From: Vibrio coralliirubri
GTDB lineage: Bacteria > Pseudomonadota > Gammaproteobacteria > Enterobacterales > Vibrionaceae
Direction of reading: 5' to 3'
NCBI RefSeq assembly: GCF_024347375.1
Contig: NZ_AP025470.1
Location: 2,480,001 to 2,544,000, forward strand
Length of the DNA: 64,000 nt
Shown here: one piece after another, positions 11,242 to 30,356 of the stretch
How the letters are laid out: the number at the start of each line of letters is the position of its first letter
How positions within the stretch are numbered: the stretch's first letter is position 1
The notes under the pieces: generated by a model
Databases searched by the model: none
What the model was told of the DNA's origin: nothing
Seen by the model: the letters and a program-made list of their open reading frames with translations, nothing else
Translations under genes and position numbers: made by a program

Positions 11242-12295
11242 GGCTTTGTTGCGTAATTAAATTTAGAGATAGAGCCAACCCGTTTCGCTTGTTTCTTAGT
11301 CAATACGACAAGTTTCAGGCATACCTAACCCAGTAAGCTTGTTCAACGCTTTTATCATCGCGTAAGTTTCACCCACCTGGGCATTGTAATTTCTTAAGCT
11401 CAGTTTCCCTCCTAGCAACTGTTTAACTCGATACATCGCTGTTTCTGAGAGTGAACGTTTGTGGTATCCATACCGCTCTTTCCAATACTTATTTGAGTCG
11501 TATAATTTCTGGCAACCCACGGCGAAATTTCGAGGGTGACCACGCTCCCAGAAGGCAGCCCCTTCTCTTGGGGGAATAAGCGCAATAGCTCCCTTAATCT
11601 TAATAGCAGCGTGACACGCTCTCGTGTCGTAAGCGCCATCACCAGACACCTCAAGGATACTTCGGCGTGTTTGTTTCAGTAAGTTCGGGAGTACTTCTCC
11701 ATCTGTAACCGTCGATAAACTTAGCTCGGCGGCAATGATCTCATGAGTGTTGGTATCGACTGCAATATGCAGCTTTCGCCAGACTCTACGCTTGCCATCC
11801 GTCCCATGTTTTTTGACTTTCCATTCACCTTCGCCATAAACCTTAAGGCCAGTAGCATCAATGGCTAGGTGCTGTATCGCTCCTCTCGTTTTAGTCTTAA
11901 ATGAAACCTCAACTTGCTTGGCTCTACGACTGATGCAGGTGTAATGCGGACAACTTAACGGTACATGGGCTAACCTAAATATCGAGTCGATAAATCCTTG
12001 CAGCGCTCTCAATGGCATAGAAAAAACTCGTTTGACCATGAGTGCTGTCGTGATAGCTAAATCACTGAACCGACGCGGCCTACCGCGCTTATTCTGTTTG
12101 CTTTGCGCCCATCCGCTTATTGCTTCTTCATCAATCCAAAAAGTCAGAGAACCACGGTTAATGAGTGATCGGTTGTATTGCTTCCAGTTGGTTGTTTTAT
12201 AACGAGGCTTAGGCATAGGACTACGAGATAGAGTGGAGGTAGCTGATCAGATCGTAGGTTCTTGATTTAGTTCCATTGAATTACGCAACAAAGCC
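11242..12295 (-). mobile_element. IS5-family insertion sequence, copy 1, with target duplication
   Basis: 1054 bp bounded by perfect 17-bp inverted repeats GGCTTTGTTGCGTAATT, containing one transposase gene. The 9-bp direct repeat CAAATACGT abuts both ends (11233-11241 and 12296-12304), which indicates an intact simple insertion. Nine-base duplications and a single ORF fit the IS903 subgroup of IS5. It landed between the amidohydrolase gene and the ClpP-like lipoprotein gene. Confidence 0.95.
11296..12216 (-). CDS. IS5-family transposase, copy 1
   Basis: 306 aa DDE transposase. Seen: N-terminal KPRYKTTNWKQYNRSLINRGSL typical of the IS903 group (cited as positions 3-24), catalytic Asp in LAIDATGLKVYGEGEW, second Asp in VSGDGAYDTRACH, and the Glu region YGYHKRSLSETAMYRVKQLLG. 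Identical protein to copy 2 at 13661, so both insertions are recent or homogenised. Complete, presumably active. Confidence 0.95.
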   Translation of the reverse strand: MPKPRYKTTNWKQYNRSLINRGSLTFWIDEEAISGWAQSKQNKRGRPRRFSDLAITTALMVKRVFSMPLRALQGFIDSIFRLAHVPLSCPHYTCISRRAKQVEVSFKTKTRGAIQHLAIDATGLKVYGEGEWKVKKHGTDGKRRVWRKLHIAVDTNTHEIIAAELSLSTVTDGEVLPNLLKQTRRSILEVSGDGAYDTRACHAAIKIKGAIALIPPREGAAFWERGHPRNFAVGCQKLYDSNKYWKERYGYHKRSLSETAMYRVKQLLGGKLSLRNYNAQVGETYAMIKALNKLTGLGMPETCRID

Positions 12296-13606: not shown

Positions 13607-14660
13607 GGCTTTGTTGCGTAATTAAATTTAGAGATAGAGCCAACCCGTTTCGCTTGTTTCTTAGTCAATACGACAAGTTTCAGGCATACCTAACCCAGTA
13701 AGCTTGTTCAACGCTTTTATCATCGCGTAAGTTTCACCCACCTGGGCATTGTAATTTCTTAAGCTCAGTTTCCCTCCTAGCAACTGTTTAACTCGATACA
13801 TCGCTGTTTCTGAGAGTGAACGTTTGTGGTATCCATACCGCTCTTTCCAATACTTATTTGAGTCGTATAATTTCTGGCAACCCACGGCGAAATTTCGAGG
13901 GTGACCACGCTCCCAGAAGGCAGCCCCTTCTCTTGGGGGAATAAGCGCAATAGCTCCCTTAATCTTAATAGCAGCGTGACACGCTCTCGTGTCGTAAGCG
14001 CCATCACCAGACACCTCAAGGATACTTCGGCGTGTTTGTTTCAGTAAGTTCGGGAGTACTTCTCCATCTGTAACCGTCGATAAACTTAGCTCGGCGGCAA
14101 TGATCTCATGAGTGTTGGTATCGACTGCAATATGCAGCTTTCGCCAGACTCTACGCTTGCCATCCGTCCCATGTTTTTTGACTTTCCATTCACCTTCGCC
14201 ATAAACCTTAAGGCCAGTAGCATCAATGGCTAGGTGCTGTATCGCTCCTCTCGTTTTAGTCTTAAATGAAACCTCAACTTGCTTGGCTCTACGACTGATG
14301 CAGGTGTAATGCGGACAACTTAACGGTACATGGGCTAACCTAAATATCGAGTCGATAAATCCTTGCAGCGCTCTCAATGGCATAGAAAAAACTCGTTTGA
14401 CCATGAGTGCTGTCGTGATAGCTAAATCACTGAACCGACGCGGCCTACCGCGCTTATTCTGTTTGCTTTGCGCCCATCCGCTTATTGCTTCTTCATCAAT
14501 CCAAAAAGTCAGAGAACCACGGTTAATGAGTGATCGGTTGTATTGCTTCCAGTTGGTTGTTTTATAACGAGGCTTAGGCATAGGACTACGAGATAGAGTG
14601 GAGGTAGCTGATCAGATCGTAGGTTCTTGATTTAGTTCCATTGAATTACGCAACAAAGCC
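13607..14660 (-). mobile_element. IS5-family insertion sequence, copy 2, without target duplication
   Basis: Same 1054-bp element and orientation as copy 1, with the same perfect terminal repeats. The adjoining 9 bases differ: TATGTTTGC on the left and TCAAATTGC on the right, so no direct repeat. This suggests an IS-associated deletion or recombination between IS copies after insertion, possibly removing part of the interrupted gene. Confidence 0.93.
13661..14581 (-). CDS. IS5-family transposase, copy 2
   Basis: 306 aa, residue-for-residue identical to the copy at 11296. DDE catalytic residues are intact, so this copy could also supply transposase. Confidence 0.95.
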   Translation of the reverse strand: MPKPRYKTTNWKQYNRSLINRGSLTFWIDEEAISGWAQSKQNKRGRPRRFSDLAITTALMVKRVFSMPLRALQGFIDSIFRLAHVPLSCPHYTCISRRAKQVEVSFKTKTRGAIQHLAIDATGLKVYGEGEWKVKKHGTDGKRRVWRKLHIAVDTNTHEIIAAELSLSTVTDGEVLPNLLKQTRRSILEVSGDGAYDTRACHAAIKIKGAIALIPPREGAAFWERGHPRNFAVGCQKLYDSNKYWKERYGYHKRSLSETAMYRVKQLLGGKLSLRNYNAQVGETYAMIKALNKLTGLGMPETCRID

Positions 14661-23611: not shown

Positions 23612-23644
23612 AAAAGGGACTGGTATTTCTACCCGTCCCTTTTT
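23612..23644. terminator. Palindromic terminator repeat, divergent copy A
   Basis: Arms AAAAGGGAC-T-GGT and ACC-C-GTCCCTTTTT around ATTTCT, between convergent genes ending at 23552 and 23665. Same layout as four better-conserved copies at 28829, 31043, 33437 and 36438. Confidence 0.85.
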
Positions 23645-24549: not shown

Positions 24550-24648
24550 TGTTCTTCTCCTTTTTGTTTACGTTTTGAATCTTAGTTTCTTGAAGGAGTG
24601 AGAAAAACAGTACAAAATGACTTCACTGTTTACTAAATAGTGTTAATG

Positions 24649-25545
24649 ATGAATTTGATTTATATGCAGACCTTCTTGACTGTCGCCGAAGAGCAAAGCT
24701 TCACCAAGGCCGCTGAAGTATTGGATGTGTCAAAAGGTTTGGTGTCTCGGCATGTACAACGACTCGAAGAAACATTGAATTCTAAGCTGTTTCACAGAAC
24801 GACTCGTTCTATCAGCCTCACGGAAGTGGGCGAAGAGTTGTATTCGAAAGCGAAGCAAATTCAACTATTAGCAATCGAAGCGGAAATGCGTGTCTTAGAC
24901 ATGACGCAGGAAGTGGCAGGCGATTTAAAAATTACCGCACCGATAGAGTTTGGGCGTGCGCTTTGTCGTCATATCATCCCTACTTTCAAGCAAGAGTACC
25001 CAAAAGTGGATTTGATTCTCGACTTTGGGCCGATGAAAAAGAAGATCGAGTCTGGCGACTTTGACATTGCTTTTCGAGCCTACGATGAACTGCCTAATGA
25101 TGTGATTGCCAACGATCTCGGGCATATCCGCAATGTTCTCGTTTGCAGTGCGGGTTACGCATCGACTAACCCACTTGCCACCACTAAAGACATCCATAAA
25201 TGCAGCTTCATTCTTAACAGTCAAAATGAACGTTGGAATCAGCTGGAGTTGATCAATGGTGAGCAAACCTACCATGTTGAAGTAACCGGAAGCGTTAGCT
25301 CGAATACCTACAGTTCAATTTTAGAGTTAGCGATGCAAGGGATAGGTGTCGCCAGCTTGCCGTTCTATCAAGTTGAAGAGCAGCTCAAACAAGGTGTGCT
25401 TATTCACGTGTTTCCAGAATGGTCGATAAAAGCCCAAAAGCTAAGCCTTATCTATGCTCAAAGAAGGGTAACACCGCAGAAGTTGGTCACTTTTAACCGA
25501 GCGGTAAAAGAGTGGTTGGAATCGAATAACGCTTATACGTTGTGA
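24649..25545 (+). CDS. LysR-family transcriptional regulator
   Basis: About 298 aa; ATG 24646 and 24649 are adjacent candidates. N-terminal helix-turn-helix (YMQTFLTVAEEQSFTKAAEVL, LVSRHVQRLEETL, RTTRSISLTEVG), C-terminal effector domain of the CrgA/AaeR-like group. Divergent from the SMP-30 gene. Confidence 0.9.
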   Translation: MNLIYMQTFLTVAEEQSFTKAAEVLDVSKGLVSRHVQRLEETLNSKLFHRTTRSISLTEVGEELYSKAKQIQLLAIEAEMRVLDMTQEVAGDLKITAPIEFGRALCRHIIPTFKQEYPKVDLILDFGPMKKKIESGDFDIAFRAYDELPNDVIANDLGHIRNVLVCSAGYASTNPLATTKDIHKCSFILNSQNERWNQLELINGEQTYHVEVTGSVSSNTYSSILELAMQGIGVASLPFYQVEEQLKQGVLIHVFPEWSIKAQKLSLIYAQRRVTPQKLVTFNRAVKEWLESNNAYTL

Positions 25546-26061
25546 GTCTTAGAACGGCGAATCTTCAATTTGAATGCATGTACGTTCCATTTATATCAGG
25601 CTCAATCACACTGCTTTCGATAACTGATTGGCTGCCGTGTTTTCGCATGTTTTGAAACACCCTCCCCCTCTAACTCCCCCTCAAGTTGAGTTCATCACCC
25701 CCTCTAGATTGACGATCGAGGGGGAGAATCTTCTTTGGCGCTGAATATATAACTGCGCACGTAACGATCGGTATTCTGTGCCTCCTCTTTCTACAAACCA
25801 CGATGGATCGAAGATGCAGATTAAGGGAGGTTAGGAAAGAGTTTAAGGTTGGACCAACACGGGGTTGCCCCATTGCGTGTTAGATACCCCAATTGACCTA
25901 GATACTATTCCTAATCTGGAATGGCTTTGGGTAATAAGCCTCACAGGATGTCAACTCTAGACAATAAGTACAGATAAGAAAATTTATGGGTTACTCATTC
26001 TGACCGATGGGACTATTATAAGACCTAGCTCAAATTAGCGATATGTCACTTAAAGTACTAT
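25546..26061. other. Gene-poor stretch with hairpin repeats
   Basis: No convincing gene. Contains C-rich sequence with an inverted repeat CCCCCTC / GAGGGGG (25698-25724) and a dispersed repeat at 25781-25840 (listed separately). It separates the LysR gene from the AAA/HNH cassette and looks like the left flank of an acquired segment. Confidence 0.6.
25781..25840. repeat. Dispersed GATGGATCG-type repeat, copy 1
   Basis: Resembles 30292-30353: both begin CCTCC(T/C)CTTT, share ATGGATCG(A/T)AGATG(C/T)A in the middle, and end A(A/G)GGGAGGTTAGGA. The ends are complementary, so each copy can form a hairpin. They bracket the AAA/HNH cassette and the pyrophosphatase gene. Confidence 0.65.
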
Positions 26062-26214
26062 GTGCCACTGGTGGCAAACACTCATGAGCCGCATAGGGAA
26101 GAGATTATTAATACAATGACTAAGCCGCCTATCCTCCTTCACCGCAATATGGTTATTGCACGACTCACTGAGCGTGTTAAAGGCTTCATCAGTACGTTTT
26201 ATGGTGGGATGTGA
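26062..26214 (+). CDS. Possible short gene coupled to the AAA ATPase
   Basis: Open frame with candidate starts GTG 26062, GTG 26071 or ATG 26116, ending TGA at 26212-26214 so that the stop overlaps the next ATG (TGATG). Product 32 to 50 aa, basic C-terminal part (RNMVIARLTERVKGFISTFY). No good ribosome site. It may be a leader peptide, a gene remnant or chance; its last codons contain the GGTGGG ribosome site of the ATPase gene. Confidence 0.25.
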   Translation: MPLVANTHEPHREEIINTMTKPPILLHRNMVIARLTERVKGFISTFYGGM

Positions 26215-27794
26215 TGATTAACTTCGTAGTCTTGGATAGAAATGTACACTTACCTACCACCAGTATAAGCACCGTTTACCTGAAGGTGGATTTTTGGAAT
26301 GATTATTCTTTTGTAACAATGTTTTACATGACGGTGTTTGACCAGAACGGCACGTTACATGACATTGGTAATGTGAAAATCGCCTTTAAGAGCCAAACAA
26401 TAAGTACCAGCACACACTCTACACTAGGGGGGAGTTTCGATCATCTCACTGACAAGTACTTCTCTGTTGGGGAAAATGTTGAATATTATAAGAACCTGAA
26501 CAAGCTAGATGATAGGCTGAAGAAGCATATTTTAAATTCCTTGCAGGATATCGTTTATCTGCCGGCTAGATTGCCTGATATTGAAGATGAAGAAGTGTTA
26601 AACACCTCCTTGTTTCGTGGCGTAACATTGTCAGAAGTTCATGGCCAGTTTGCAAGGGTATTAGAAGGTTTTGCGGAGCTTTCAGATTTCAACTTCAATT
26701 TTATACGTAGTGGCGCGGACGGCTTTTGTGATTTGAGAGTACCTTTTAAGGTGATGGTCAACTCAGTCCCAAGTACAAACATACACGCCTTTATTGGTCG
26801 TAATGGCTGCGGAAAGACAACGATATTAAATGGTATGATAGCTGCCATTGTAAGGCCAGATAACGACAAACTATTTTTTACCGAGAGCAACTACTTCAAT
26901 GAGTCACGGATACCCACTGGGTATTTTCGCTCGTTGGTATCTGTATCATTTAGCGCTTTTGACCCCTTTTCTCCGCCTCAAGAGCAACCTGACCCAGCCA
27001 AAGGTACAAAGTACTTCTATATCGGATTAAGAGATAAACATAATAATCAGGTCTTAAGCTCTCTCGATGATCTGCGCTTGGAGTTTGTATCCGCTTTGAT
27101 TGGTTGCTTGAGAGCAGAAAGCAAAAAAGCGCTGTGGCTTAAAGCGATTGAAAAATTAAGTAGCGATCAGAACTTCTCAAATATGGGGCTTAGTATCCTT
27201 AATACTAGGTATATTGCCCTTAGAGATAAGACAGCCAATACGCAGGTCGATAGCAATGAGTTCAGGGATCTGCTTTATCAGGATATTCACAAGTACCTTT
27301 CTCGGATGAGTTCTGGACACGCCATTGTTTTATTTACTGTAACTAGATTGGTAGATACGGTTGGTGAGAAGTCACTTATTTTGATCGATGAACCAGAAGG
27401 GCATCTGCATCCCCCGTTGTTAGCTGCTTTTTTACGGACTTTGAGCGAATTACTCTATGCGAAAAATGGTGTTGCTATAATAGCTACGCACTCTCCAGTT
27501 GTATTGCAAGAAGTGCCTAAATCTTGTGTATGGAAGGTAAACCGTTCTAGAGAAGCTATAAATGTACAACGGCCAGAAATTGAAACATTTGGAGAAAATC
27601 TTGGAGTGCTCACTCGAGAGGTGTTTTCCTTGGAAGTTGAAAATTCGGGGTATCATTCGTTGTTAGCTACTTCTGTTGAATCGGGCCTTTCTTATGAAGA
27701 TATTTTGGCCCAATACGGCAGTCAGATTGGCTTGGAAGGGAGGACTGTATTGAAAGCTATGGTCCTTAGTAGAGACTCAGGTCAGACTCAATGA
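26214..27794 (+). CDS. AAA-family ATPase of a Septu-like defence cassette (PtuA-like)
   Basis: 526 aa from ATG 26214 (GTG 26211 also possible). An N-terminal domain of about 190 residues precedes Walker A GRNGCGKTT at about 195; an ABC-type signature-like MSSGH lies near 365, Walker B LILIDEPEGHLHP near 390, and the switch histidine in IIATHSP. This RecF/OLD-like arrangement matches ATPases of anti-phage systems. The stop overlaps the HNH gene start by four bases (ATGA), so the two are translationally coupled. Known: in Septu the PtuA ATPase partners the PtuB HNH nuclease. Inferred: defence role here. A related AAA/HNH subtype not called Septu is possible. No reverse transcriptase nearby, which argues against a retron. 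Confidence 0.75.
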   Translation: MINFVVLDRNVHLPTTSISTVYLKVDFWNDYSFVTMFYMTVFDQNGTLHDIGNVKIAFKSQTISTSTHSTLGGSFDHLTDKYFSVGENVEYYKNLNKLDDRLKKHILNSLQDIVYLPARLPDIEDEEVLNTSLFRGVTLSEVHGQFARVLEGFAELSDFNFNFIRSGADGFCDLRVPFKVMVNSVPSTNIHAFIGRNGCGKTTILNGMIAAIVRPDNDKLFFTESNYFNESRIPTGYFRSLVSVSFSAFDPFSPPQEQPDPAKGTKYFYIGLRDKHNNQVLSSLDDLRLEFVSALIGCLRAESKKALWLKAIEKLSSDQNFSNMGLSILNTRYIALRDKTANTQVDSNEFRDLLYQDIHKYLSRMSSGHAIVLFTVTRLVDTVGEKSLILIDEPEGHLHPPLLAAFLRTLSELLYAKNGVAIIATHSPVVLQEVPKSCVWKVNRSREAINVQRPEIETFGENLGVLTREVFSLEVENSGYHSLLATSVESGLSYEDILAQYGSQIGLEGRTVLKAMVLSRDSGQTQ

Positions 27795-28678
27795 AAAAAC
27801 TACAACCCCACGACATAACTTTTGGTGATATGTTGGAGAAATGCTCTGAGGGTATGGACCAGGTCCATGTGAAAGCCAACTTTGTCGCCCACTTACCCAT
27901 ATTTTCATCAAAGGAAACGCAGTATCAGGGTCTGAGTTTGGCTGGCAATTTGTTTCATTATCCTAAGACGACGCCATTGACTAATGATACTCAAGTTGTT
28001 GGGAATTTGACTAAGCGAAAGCTGGTTAACCTATACGAGAACAATCTGAGAAATAAAGAAAAGCCTGCTAGGCGCTTCTATGACGAGCTATTGATATCTT
28101 CAGGGGAAAGGTGTCCGTTTTGTGGTGATATCGGACAAACCAAGAATCTTGATCACTTTTTGCCCAAGGCTCACTTCCCAGAGTTCTCTATTATGCCTCT
28201 CAATCTAGTCCCATCATGCCGCGATTGTAATATGGGGGAGAAGGGGCAGAATTACGCTACTGTCGAAGAAGAACAAGCGATTCATCCATATATTGATAAA
28301 GACATGTTTTTTCAGGAGCAATGGGTATTCGCAGAATACCTTGATGAGGATGAGGGTGCTCTTAGCTACTATGTAAGTTGTCCAGTTACGTGGCGTAAAG
28401 AAGATAAAGCCAGAGCACACAACCATTTTACGAATCTAGATTTAGCTAGTCGCTATCGATTAGAAGCTGGTAAACACCTTAGTGAAGTAATCGATCAGAA
28501 AAATGCTTTCAGAAATATGATTCTAAGGTTTAGCCCCAACGCAATGCCAATCGATATCAAAAATGCTTTTGTCGAGGCAAATCTTCAACCGATGATAGAC
28601 TCGGACCAGTTCAATAACCACTGGAAAAAAGTTATGTACCAGTGTTTAGCTAATTCAAATGAGTTCTTTGGGATTTAG
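27791..28678 (+). CDS. HNH endonuclease of the AAA/HNH cassette (PtuB-like)
   Basis: 295 aa. Zinc-type HNH: C108 and C111 in ERCPFCG, D121-H122 in LDHFLPK, N138 in MPLNLVPSC, C143 and C146 in SCRDCN. All expected metal and catalytic residues appear present, so it is probably an active DNA or RNA nuclease. Regions before (about 1-105) and after (about 155-295) the HNH core are larger than in minimal HNH proteins and probably contact the ATPase. Coupled to the ATPase gene by ATGA overlap. Confidence 0.8.
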   Translation: MKKLQPHDITFGDMLEKCSEGMDQVHVKANFVAHLPIFSSKETQYQGLSLAGNLFHYPKTTPLTNDTQVVGNLTKRKLVNLYENNLRNKEKPARRFYDELLISSGERCPFCGDIGQTKNLDHFLPKAHFPEFSIMPLNLVPSCRDCNMGEKGQNYATVEEEQAIHPYIDKDMFFQEQWVFAEYLDEDEGALSYYVSCPVTWRKEDKARAHNHFTNLDLASRYRLEAGKHLSEVIDQKNAFRNMILRFSPNAMPIDIKNAFVEANLQPMIDSDQFNNHWKKVMYQCLANSNEFFGI

Positions 28679-28828
28679 TTTTTTGCTCATGAAATTTCAC
28701 TTCAGATGGTGAAAAGCAATCCTACTTACCGACTAGTCTCGCATTTTTTTATCGCCACCAAGCCACTCTGTTTTGGCTGGTAAAACTGAATTGTCCAACC
28801 CCAATTCAACACCACCCAAAAACAAAAA

Positions 28829-28852
28829 GGGATTGGTATCTCTACCAATCCC
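28829..28852. terminator. Palindromic terminator repeat, copy B
   Basis: Stem GGGATTGGTA / TACCAATCCC with TCTC loop, preceded by AACAAAAA, between convergent HNH (ends 28678) and pyrophosphatase (ends 28873) genes. Confidence 0.85.
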
Positions 28853-28872
28853 TTCTAAAGCTCTCTTAAAAC

Positions 28873-29886
28873 TTACAAGCTCTCAATTGCCTTTTGTACC
28901 GCAGGGCCAATCTGACGCTTACGCGAAGTGACGCCTTCTAACGTCAACATGTCGCTTGTTGGTTCAGCGTTGAAAGCCGATTTAATCACTTGATAGTCGC
29001 TTTCATCTACCCAAAGTAAGTTTGCTTCTTTATTCTTAGTGTCTGTGATTGAGAAGAACAGATGGTCTAGCCCGTTCTCTTCTTTGTAAGTCTTCATTGC
29101 TGCTAGAAGATCGTCTTTACGGTCAATCAGTTGTTGAGCCGTTAGCGTTTCAGCGACACCAATACCCACCTGTTTGCCACCGTATTTAAAGTTTTTGTAA
29201 TCCAGCGTCAGAATGGTTTCAGAAGAAAGGTGACTGAGATCCGACTTAGCAATCAGCATCTGTTGGCCGAAATCTTCGATATCTGAAATGCCTGCAACTT
29301 TTGCCAGTTTCTCTGCGTACTCACGATCATGCTCAGTCGTGGTTGATGATTGGAATACGACAGTGTCAGAAAGAATCGCGCCTAAGCCGACACAAGCAAG
29401 GTGCTTAGGTAGTGTCACATCCAGCTTTTCAGCGTTATCAGCCAGAATAGTGGCAGCCGATCCCCAACCTCGAATATCCATTTCGACAATTTGTGGTGTG
29501 TTAATCGGTGAGCCACCAATTGCGTGATGATCAACCACAGCAACAATCGATGATTGGTCAATGGTTGGCGCTAGCTGAGTGACTTGGTTGAAATCCACCA
29601 GCCCCACGCGGTATGAAGAGTAATCTGTCTCTACGCGTGGCGATTCTGCATTACAGTAGTTCAAAATGAAGGTGGATTCTGGATTAATCGGCTCTGGCAC
29701 TGTCGCTGTACCACCATAGATATGAGCCGCGAGCATCGCAGACATTACCGTGTCGCTGTCTGGGCTTAGATGCCCTGTCCATACGAGATCTTCACTGTTT
29801 TCATTAGCAGATTGTTGCAAGCTAAAAGCAAAACTTGCTGAACTGAAAGACATAATTACGGCTGCAACGACAGGGGTTAGCTTCAC
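28873..29886 (-). CDS. ppaC: Exported manganese-dependent (family II) inorganic pyrophosphatase
   Basis: 337 aa from GTG 29886, which has AAGGAA six bases upstream; upstream in-frame codons lack this. DHH-superfamily motifs: GHLSPDSDTVMSA, FILNYC, VDFN, VVDHHAIGG, then the C-terminal DHHA2 part ending in SRKRQIGPAV, the substrate-binding SRK motif. Hydrolyses pyrophosphate to phosphate using Mn2+ in the family. Unusual: residues 1-24 look like a Sec signal peptide (KLTPVVAAVIMSFSSASFA), so the enzyme is probably periplasmic; most family II enzymes are cytosolic. Monocistronic. Confidence 0.88.
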   Translation of the reverse strand: MKLTPVVAAVIMSFSSASFAFSLQQSANENSEDLVWTGHLSPDSDTVMSAMLAAHIYGGTATVPEPINPESTFILNYCNAESPRVETDYSSYRVGLVDFNQVTQLAPTIDQSSIVAVVDHHAIGGSPINTPQIVEMDIRGWGSAATILADNAEKLDVTLPKHLACVGLGAILSDTVVFQSSTTTEHDREYAEKLAKVAGISDIEDFGQQMLIAKSDLSHLSSETILTLDYKNFKYGGKQVGIGVAETLTAQQLIDRKDDLLAAMKTYKEENGLDHLFFSITDTKNKEANLLWVDESDYQVIKSAFNAEPTSDMLTLEGVTSRKRQIGPAVQKAIESL

Positions 29887-30356
29887 GGGTATTTCCTTAT
29901 TTGAATGCGATATAGAACCCCATAAGCTAAACACCAAAAATTTCAGAACCGTGTCACCAATATTTCAGATTTACTTCAGTGAGTAACGAAATGTAATTTC
30001 CCTCTTCTTCTCCCCGTCAATTTGGACTGAGCCCCCCTTTCTATTACACTCCCGCCACAACCAATTTGGGATTAGTTCAGCTTTTCATTATTTCACAATG
30101 AATTTCAATGAACCCTAATGATAAGAAAGCTAAGACACTGATTTATTGACCACATAACATCATCAACCCGAATACTAGAAATGAGATAATCTTATTAAAA
30201 TTTGATTAGAAGAAGACAAAAAAAGGCTACAAAGCAGCCCTATTGAGTAAGCATAAATGAGCTATTCATTCATCGGTATCGAGGTTTTGTTCCTCCCCTT
30301 TCCCACTACTAGTAATGGATCGTAGATGTAAGCCAAGGGGAGGTTAGGAGGGGATT
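29887..30356. other. Intergenic stretch with repeat, no gene seen
   Basis: Between the pyrophosphatase and RlpA-like genes. No credible coding frame. The right part (30292-30353) is a dispersed repeat; the left part presumably holds the pyrophosphatase promoter. Confidence 0.6.
30292..30353. repeat. Dispersed GATGGATCG-type repeat, copy 2
   Basis: Partner of 25781-25840. CCTCCCCTT at one end pairs with AAGGGGAGG at the other, so a long hairpin is possible. Abuts the stop of the RlpA-like gene. Confidence 0.65.

Follow-up and report, generated by a model that had tools for sequence, protein, structure and literature searches.

What does a chromosomal gene pair encoding an ATPase and an HNH nuclease do, and how did it come to stand where it does? 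The pair lies within a 64,000-nucleotide stretch of the Vibrio coralliirubri genome (NZ_AP025470.1, positions 2,480,001 to 2,544,000; hereafter the window), and an original prediction from the sequence had read it as a Septu subtype or an unnamed AAA/HNH defence family. We conclude that the locus is a horizontally acquired module of the phage lambda Ea59-Ea31 (PADLOC PDC-M01) type, most likely acting as a Septu-like anti-phage system, and regard this reading as probable. Genomes and loci used for comparison carry our labels (G and L numbers).

The gene pair is a counterpart of lambda ea59-ea31

The best PADLOC model was PDC-M01A (PDLC04235) for the ATPase, with E 1.1e-199 over residues 3-522 of 526, and PDC-M01B (PDLC04256) for the HNH protein, with E 2e-115 over residues 1-293 of 295. 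Ea59 and EA31 appeared as source names among the relatives in protein searches, and tblastn against phage records aligned the ATPase over its whole length with lambda ea59 (NC_001416; 66.5% identity) and the HNH protein with ea31 (62.5% identity, 99% coverage). The lambda genes follow the same order, also overlap by four bases, have products of 525 and 296 residues and match the same PADLOC models; in the trees of both proteins, lambda and the window pair fall into one group of four with 100/100 support. Judged by sequence, the window pair is a member of the catalogued candidate family PADLOC PDC-M01 and the counterpart of lambda ea59-ea31. The original prediction was therefore right to propose an AAA/HNH family near Septu but not to call it unnamed, and it had missed the kinship with lambda; where a known non-defence family was looked for, the matches were to candidate defence families. 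Members of this family normally have the larger HNH protein and the long ATPase N-terminus.

The family has been catalogued before, as PDC-M01 in PADLOC-DB. A survey of Bacillus cereus regards PDC-M01 as a candidate not yet published and in part coincident with Septu (PMC11811056), and other reports call lambda ea59 and ea31 nonessential (PMC13119297, PMC10695390) or place them within a region removed to make room (PMC12318184). Among the matches listed for ea59 were papers on lambda engineering and essentiality and unrelated uses of the string. No paper combining 'ea59' and 'septu' was found, bioRxiv-only preprints and most subscription papers lying outside the search, and a link between ea59-ea31 and Septu may exist in other literature.

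Integrity, linkage and distribution of the two genes

As predicted, the ATPase has a Walker A motif, an SSGH signature, a Walker B motif and a switch histidine, the first of these beginning after about 190 residues, and is followed by a CxxC-type HNH nuclease (CPFC at residue 108, CRDC at 143) whose gene overlaps that of the ATPase by four bases (ATGA; Table 1). Both genes are full open reading frames; the ATPase may start at GTG 26211 or at ATG 26214, the latter agreeing with the lambda homologue. Alignments of 55 ATPase and 53 HNH sequences, a chosen subset of the listed homologues, showed the motif residues in Table 1 to be invariant, with the sole exception of the nearly invariant N147 of the HNH core; ATPase residue H399 and, in the N-terminal part, W28, D30, Y92, D112 and R135 are likewise invariant. 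Compared with an 83% relative in G083, the HNH gene had proportions of nonsynonymous and synonymous differences of pN 0.08 and pS 0.51, giving a Jukes-Cantor dN/dS of about 0.10. In four comparisons at greater distance, silent sites were saturated and pN was 0.16-0.23. The HNH nuclease is under purifying selection. Given this ratio and the invariant motif residues, the genes of the pair look functional, which agrees with the earlier view that both are intact.

At 41.1% GC the pair lies below the window as a whole (44.7%), and only about 1% of the 2.4-kb stretches of the window are lower. A promoter scan returned five weak sites, against 7.4 expected by chance, and none upstream of the ATPase on its own strand. 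A search for a structured RNA or retron element upstream of the pair gave nothing beyond two Rfam matches, both below threshold (E 0.21 and 0.39) and both to families without relation to such elements.

Gene spacing was compared in 19 of 26 family loci (the window plus L022-L046) in which both genes were cleanly called, taking the first start codon in frame: ten overlap by exactly four bases, six overlap by 1 to 17 bases and three are 0-12 bases apart. ATPase and HNH identities between these loci run in parallel (r 0.90, with none of 2000 permutations as high). The same 19 loci served for the HNH tree, and L040 was added for the ATPase tree; loci with a gene that was split, cut, interrupted or not called by the open reading frame rule (L026, L028, L040-L043) were otherwise excluded, and L025 was simply not chosen.

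The distribution of the pair is patchy. An HNH match at E 1e-3 occurs in 27 of 196 genomes of the genus (own genome included), the weakest of them possibly other HNH proteins, and the PDC-M01A model is matched at E 1e-20 in two of 369 genomes of the class (own genome included), a search that scored three candidates per genome among the rows listed. DNA matches to the pair were found in 187 of 5426 E. coli genomes, 69 of them over at least 80% of the query. Viral copies numbered 24 and 19 in 50,697 phage records, mostly lambda-like, and one pattern scan of viral contigs yielded 13 loci.

Some lambda matches merit separate mention. Judging by size and identity only, those in the 'Campylobacter' phage record MW057783 and in the ~48.5-kb 'plasmids' NZ_CP104294, NZ_CP068597 and NZ_CP082339 (Stenotrophomonas, Paenibacillus and Salmonella) are probably lambda DNA from the sequencing run. 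In the DE3 records EU078592/NC_042057 the ea59 match spans residues 1-294 only, and in BL21(DE3) (NC_012971) it is part of ea59 only, so the laboratory prophage appears to be without intact ea59.

Relation to PtuA and PtuB

The PADLOC PtuA1 model PDLC00282 also fits the ATPase, with 602.8 bits over residues 4-523, and it fits lambda Ea59 too. Against NCBIfam, the ATPase reached 53.8 bits with the PtuA equivalog NF041760 (cut-off 500) and the HNH protein 14.7 bits with TIGR02646 (cut-off 52.15), and no PtuB model was among the best 25 of 56 PADLOC matches. In the trees, ATPase and HNH protein each lie in clades apart from 14 sampled PtuA/PtuB loci (five Septu-like and nine retron-type, all from one genus) with 100/100 support. 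The HNH protein is also larger than a minimal PtuB, as had been noticed: 295 residues against 213-266 in the 14 sampled PtuB proteins.

Predicted structures, compared in a second look with VIA-align 2, had PtuB as the top-ranked match of the nuclease and PtuA as that of ATPase residues ~140-526, and both predicted folds match the Septu structure 8eea. Because the folds rank in this way, the view that the pair works like PtuAB gains support. Relative to PtuA, residues 1 to ~150 of the ATPase form an extra N-terminal part, and when the first 182 residues were searched against solved structures, the sole match was to flagellin (E 0.13). The window pair is no canonical Septu system and is better read as an AAA/HNH family near Septu. 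Of the proposed Septu subtype, strict membership falls away with the separate clades and the scores below the NCBIfam cut-offs, while a likeness stands in the one PtuA1 model and the predicted folds.

A scar of hsdR precedes the pair

The short frame that the original prediction had seen overlapping the ATPase start is the end of a type I restriction gene. Its 50 codons (26062-26214) match residues 943-990 of the HsdR of Psychrosphaera sp. B3R10 (54% over 48 aa, E 7e-16), where an ATPase-HNH pair of the same kind comes directly after genes for an N6 methylase and a specificity subunit, a gene of 144 aa and an intact hsdR (990 aa, with R-subunit domains). Scar and Psychrosphaera HsdR both end in FYGGM, and in each case the stop codon overlaps the start of the ATPase gene, although the stops differ (TGA in the window, TAG in Psychrosphaera). 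As a third gene of the cassette the frame was rejected, having no Pfam, NCBIfam or PADLOC match and homology to the HsdR tail.

The window tail matches the C-termini of 13 of 25 HsdR loci from the genus, each less well than that of Psychrosphaera; the own genome has no HsdR of the scar's kind at E 1e-100, and 21 of 196 genus genomes have one. Remnants also occur elsewhere: a decayed HsdR tail precedes the pair in G083 (E 5e-4) and a 12-residue tail, weak alone, in Marinomonas transparens (E 0.004). In G050, a genus genome, the pair comes after hsdS, hsdR and a YgjP-type gene, and G087 has a divergent, interrupted pair near another hsdR. By these alignments, the branch of the window probably once stood last in a type I restriction operon (order hsdMSR-ATPase-HNH); DarTG2 and TgvAB are precedents of systems embedded in type I restriction-modification loci (PMC12255303, PMC11411939). 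If the pair is indeed a defence module, the scar is physical evidence of how such a module can leave a restriction operon.

The pair occupies a variable slot beside ppaC

The flanks had been thought to hold no housekeeping gene; they hold ppaC on the right and a LysR-type regulator on the left (Table 1). We surveyed ~8-10 kb beside ppaC in 24 of the 38 relatives with a strong ppaC match, and the pair was missing in all 24, so that a fixed resident locus, conserved in sister strains, was rejected. G087 keeps both flanks with an apparent IS3-type element (an insertion sequence) in place of the pair, the common DNA running up to 25832 and again from 28827.

The ppaC slot is variable. Slot proteins from 13 of 23 relatives were searched with PADLOC, and three of the 13 had full-length defence matches: HamA-HamB (Hachiman) in G005, a PDC-S06 protein in G006 and a PD-Lambda-1 protein in G011. 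The defence content of the slot is therefore suggestive, not universal. Nine further slot proteins from eight relatives had no full-length defence match in PADLOC; two had partial ones, which were not counted (PDC-S48, E 2.9e-7, and mad1, E 1.3e-12, to a MerR-type helix-turn-helix). The slot of G017 holds three genes that resemble IS66 by size and order only.

Several slot proteins are worth recording in their own right. A 629-aa protein occurs in the slots of G018 (L080:2928-4817) and G121 (L087 463-2352, reverse); that of G018 has no Pfam match at E 1e-3 or PADLOC match at E 1e-5 and is possibly an unlisted defence gene. The slot of G018 also carries a partial second ppaC copy (L080:2493-2719, residues ~275-354, ~90% identical), which suggests repeated recombination at the ppaC end. 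Two proteins of 245 aa (L032:3890-4627) and 249 aa (L094:1200-1949), without Pfam match, have N-termini that are very similar by eye; one lies upstream of an Ea59-Ea31-type pair and the other in the ppaC slot of another relative.

Dispersed hairpins had been predicted in the flanks and were found. The hairpin between the nuclease gene and ppaC recurs at 23612, 31034, 33431 and 36429 with 87-97% identity, and the element at 25648-25870 is found at other sites in relatives as well as in the own genome. Farther off, two 306-aa minus-strand open reading frames (11296-12216 and 13661-14581) with identically placed internal 80-aa frames are probably a duplicated gene, perhaps an insertion sequence.

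Table 1. Features of the locus, in window coordinates
Feature	Position	Strand	Remark
ATPase, ABC/AAA-type, 526 aa	26214..27794	+	lambda Ea59 / PADLOC PDC-M01A homologue
Walker A GRNGCGKT, ATPase residues 195-202	26796..26819	+	G195, N197, G198, G200, K201 invariant in 55 sequences
ABC signature SSGH, ATPase residues 366-369	27309..27320	+	G368 invariant in 55 sequences
Walker B ILIDEPE, ATPase residues 389-395	27378..27398	+	D392, E393, E395 invariant in 55 sequences
Switch histidine (426) in THSP, ATPase residues 425-428	27486..27497	+	T425, H426, S427 invariant in 55 sequences
HNH nuclease, 295 aa	27791..28678	+	lambda Ea31 / PADLOC PDC-M01B homologue, PtuB-like predicted fold
HNH core C108, C111, D121-H122, N138, C143, C146, N147	28112..28231	+	alignment of 53 sequences
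Scar of hsdR (type I restriction subunit), last ~48 codons	26062..26214	+	stop overlaps ATPase start
LysR-type regulator	24640..25545	+	left flank of slot
ppaC, Mn-dependent inorganic pyrophosphatase	28873..29937	-	right flank of slot
Segment missing from otherwise matching ppaC-LysR region of G087	25833..28826		approximate bounds of inserted module; 41.2% GC vs window 44.7%
Dispersed non-coding element with predicted hairpins, ~220 bases	25648..25870		three further genome copies, 74-76% identity
Hairpin between nuclease gene and ppaC	28827..28855		terminator-like for ppaC; four other window copies

Neighbourhoods of other family copies

Ten neighbours of divergent pairs were scanned, and matched GajA and GajB (Gabija), QatA, an Orf5/HEC-06-type protein, a SoFic-type protein and TnsB, with nothing for the other four. 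In E. coli, one copy lies beside intE at icd, others in islands that carry an integrase and adjoin tRNA genes (one strain has a DUF4297 protein there), and a copy with both genes split lies near an ABC-three-component gene. The position next to an integrase and attachment site, as in lambda, is not common to most family members. Two distant copies have surroundings that look like a type I-F CRISPR-associated transposon: L043:7122-10423 is near TniQ and a Csy2-type Cas protein, and L045:11072-12955 is near TnsB.

Proposed function and alternatives

Anti-phage defence is the likely role of the pair, and we propose a PtuAB-type logic because of fold and gene order. In retron-Eco7, PtuA and PtuB together, but neither alone, arrest growth; they deplete tRNA-Tyr, and reverse transcriptase (RT) and multicopy single-stranded DNA (msDNA) counteract them (PMC11555353); older Septu systems were reported to degrade DNA (as cited in PMC11555353). 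By analogy, the ATPase would oligomerise via its ABC heads and hold the HNH protein in the way that PtuA holds PtuB. Either the extra N-terminal part, a possible sensor or brake, or ATP turnover would register phage infection and release the nuclease, which would then cut nucleic acid (host tRNA or DNA) and stop phage growth, probably at the cell's cost. The module may once have closed a type I restriction operon and reached the ppaC slot together with the end of hsdR.

Several points weigh against defence on this pattern. The PtuB fold match is of moderate Z, and Z values of 7-8 are common without kinship; by sequence, only the catalytic parts align between the PDC-M01 family and PtuA/PtuB. 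Ten of the 13 relatives tested had no full-length defence match in the slot, and the ten scanned neighbours were chosen, not random. The literature consulted gave no defence phenotype for the window pair, the lambda pair or any PDC-M01; lambda ea59 and ea31 are described as non-essential for plaques (PMC10695390), and two other PADLOC candidates, PDC-M63AB and PDC-S04, were inactive when tested (PMC12409345).

Other explanations account for part of the evidence. That the pair serves a phage or mobile element in recombination, homing or DNA processing, with no immune role, is what the lambda copy would suggest, since ea59-ea31 lies beside int and the attachment site, and the integrase-linked E. 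coli copies fit the same pattern. Viral copies are few, however, several chromosomal copies lie near defence genes and restriction-modification operons, and carriage on mobile elements is usual for defence systems too; we hold this function to be unlikely. We doubt about as strongly that the pair is a true type I Septu system with enlarged proteins: the PtuA1 model covers nearly the full ATPase, both folds match 8eea and 41 PADLOC PDC-M01 calls coincide with Septu calls in Bacillus cereus genomes (PMC11811056), yet the clades, the NCBIfam scores and the extra N-terminal part of ~150 residues set the pair apart.

It is more improbable still that the pair belongs to type I restriction as a helper that modulates or completes HsdR and is now stranded and idle. 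The operon of Psychrosphaera, with hsdMSR directly upstream, the hsdR genes nearby in two genomes of the genus, and the scar with its decayed or shorter counterparts at two other loci all speak for it. Yet the pair was found within ~1.5 kb downstream at none of the 25 HsdR loci from 21 genus genomes, lambda and most family loci examined have no hsdR match, and the genes stay intact where no such hsdR was found; moreover, DarTG2 and TgvAB, though embedded in type I restriction-modification loci, are defences of their own (PMC12255303, PMC11411939).

Returning to the Septu-like module, we put forward a broader proposal tentatively, rating its chances somewhat below even. The lambda genes and their chromosomal kin may form a third PtuAB-type immunity architecture alongside Septu and type I-A retrons; in it, an N-terminal domain of ~150 residues particular to the family, with its five invariant residues W28, D30, Y92, D112 and R135, would take the sensor role that RT-msDNA has in retrons. 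At least the branch of the window would earlier have been at home at the 3' end of an operon for type I restriction, and the family would have hopped into prophages and chromosomal defence slots. Should the Septu-like reading of the module be right, genes of the lambda b region would offer a Septu-like defence open to test. Few viruses have been studied as well as lambda, yet ea59 and ea31 figure in the literature consulted only as dispensable; the present finding links them to a scattered bacterial pair with predicted PtuA/PtuB folds and, in several genomes, defence-rich surroundings.

Comparison with known systems

Among known systems, PARIS differs from the window pair in its partner protein: the partner in the window is an HNH protein instead of AriB, and the AriA match is weaker than that to PtuA. 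The PtuA/PtuB effectors of retron Ec78/Eco7 (a type I-A retron, Septu type II in PADLOC) are among the top structural matches, but no reverse transcriptase adjoins the window pair (Pfam, adjacent long open reading frames), there is no credible Rfam match, and the P-loop lies at residues 91-110 in nine sampled retron PtuA proteins, against 195 in the window ATPase. The own genome has a separate, apparent retron Ec78-type set (C1 2117643-2120897; L122:7644-10898, minus strand) with a 313-aa gene in the RT position, a PtuA of 560 aa and a PtuB of 213 aa (TIGR02646, E 5e-44); the dispersed element occurs twice in its vicinity, at 2114184 and 2116727.

Type I Septu has the same order of ATPase then HNH gene, folds that the predictions for both window proteins resemble, and one PtuA1 model that fits. 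In type I Septu, a hexamer of PtuA carries two PtuB, and nucleic acid is cleaved upon infection. The system differs from the window pair in the P-loop position (30-36 in four Septu-like PtuA proteins), in the smaller HNH protein, whose core comes earlier in the chain, and in the NCBIfam scores and clades given above. PDC-M01, itself a candidate label whose defence role is a proposal, gave the best full-length match for both proteins, and no difference from it was found. Lambda ea59-ea31 shares full-length homology of both genes, their order and the four-base overlap. The lambda copy adjoins int and attP, whereas the window copy is chromosomal, beside ppaC; its adjacent long open reading frames are, by Pfam, LysR, a gluconolactonase-type protein and ppaC, with no phage integrase among them. 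Upstream, lambda has no significant HsdR tail match, whereas the window copy still carries the tail of hsdR.

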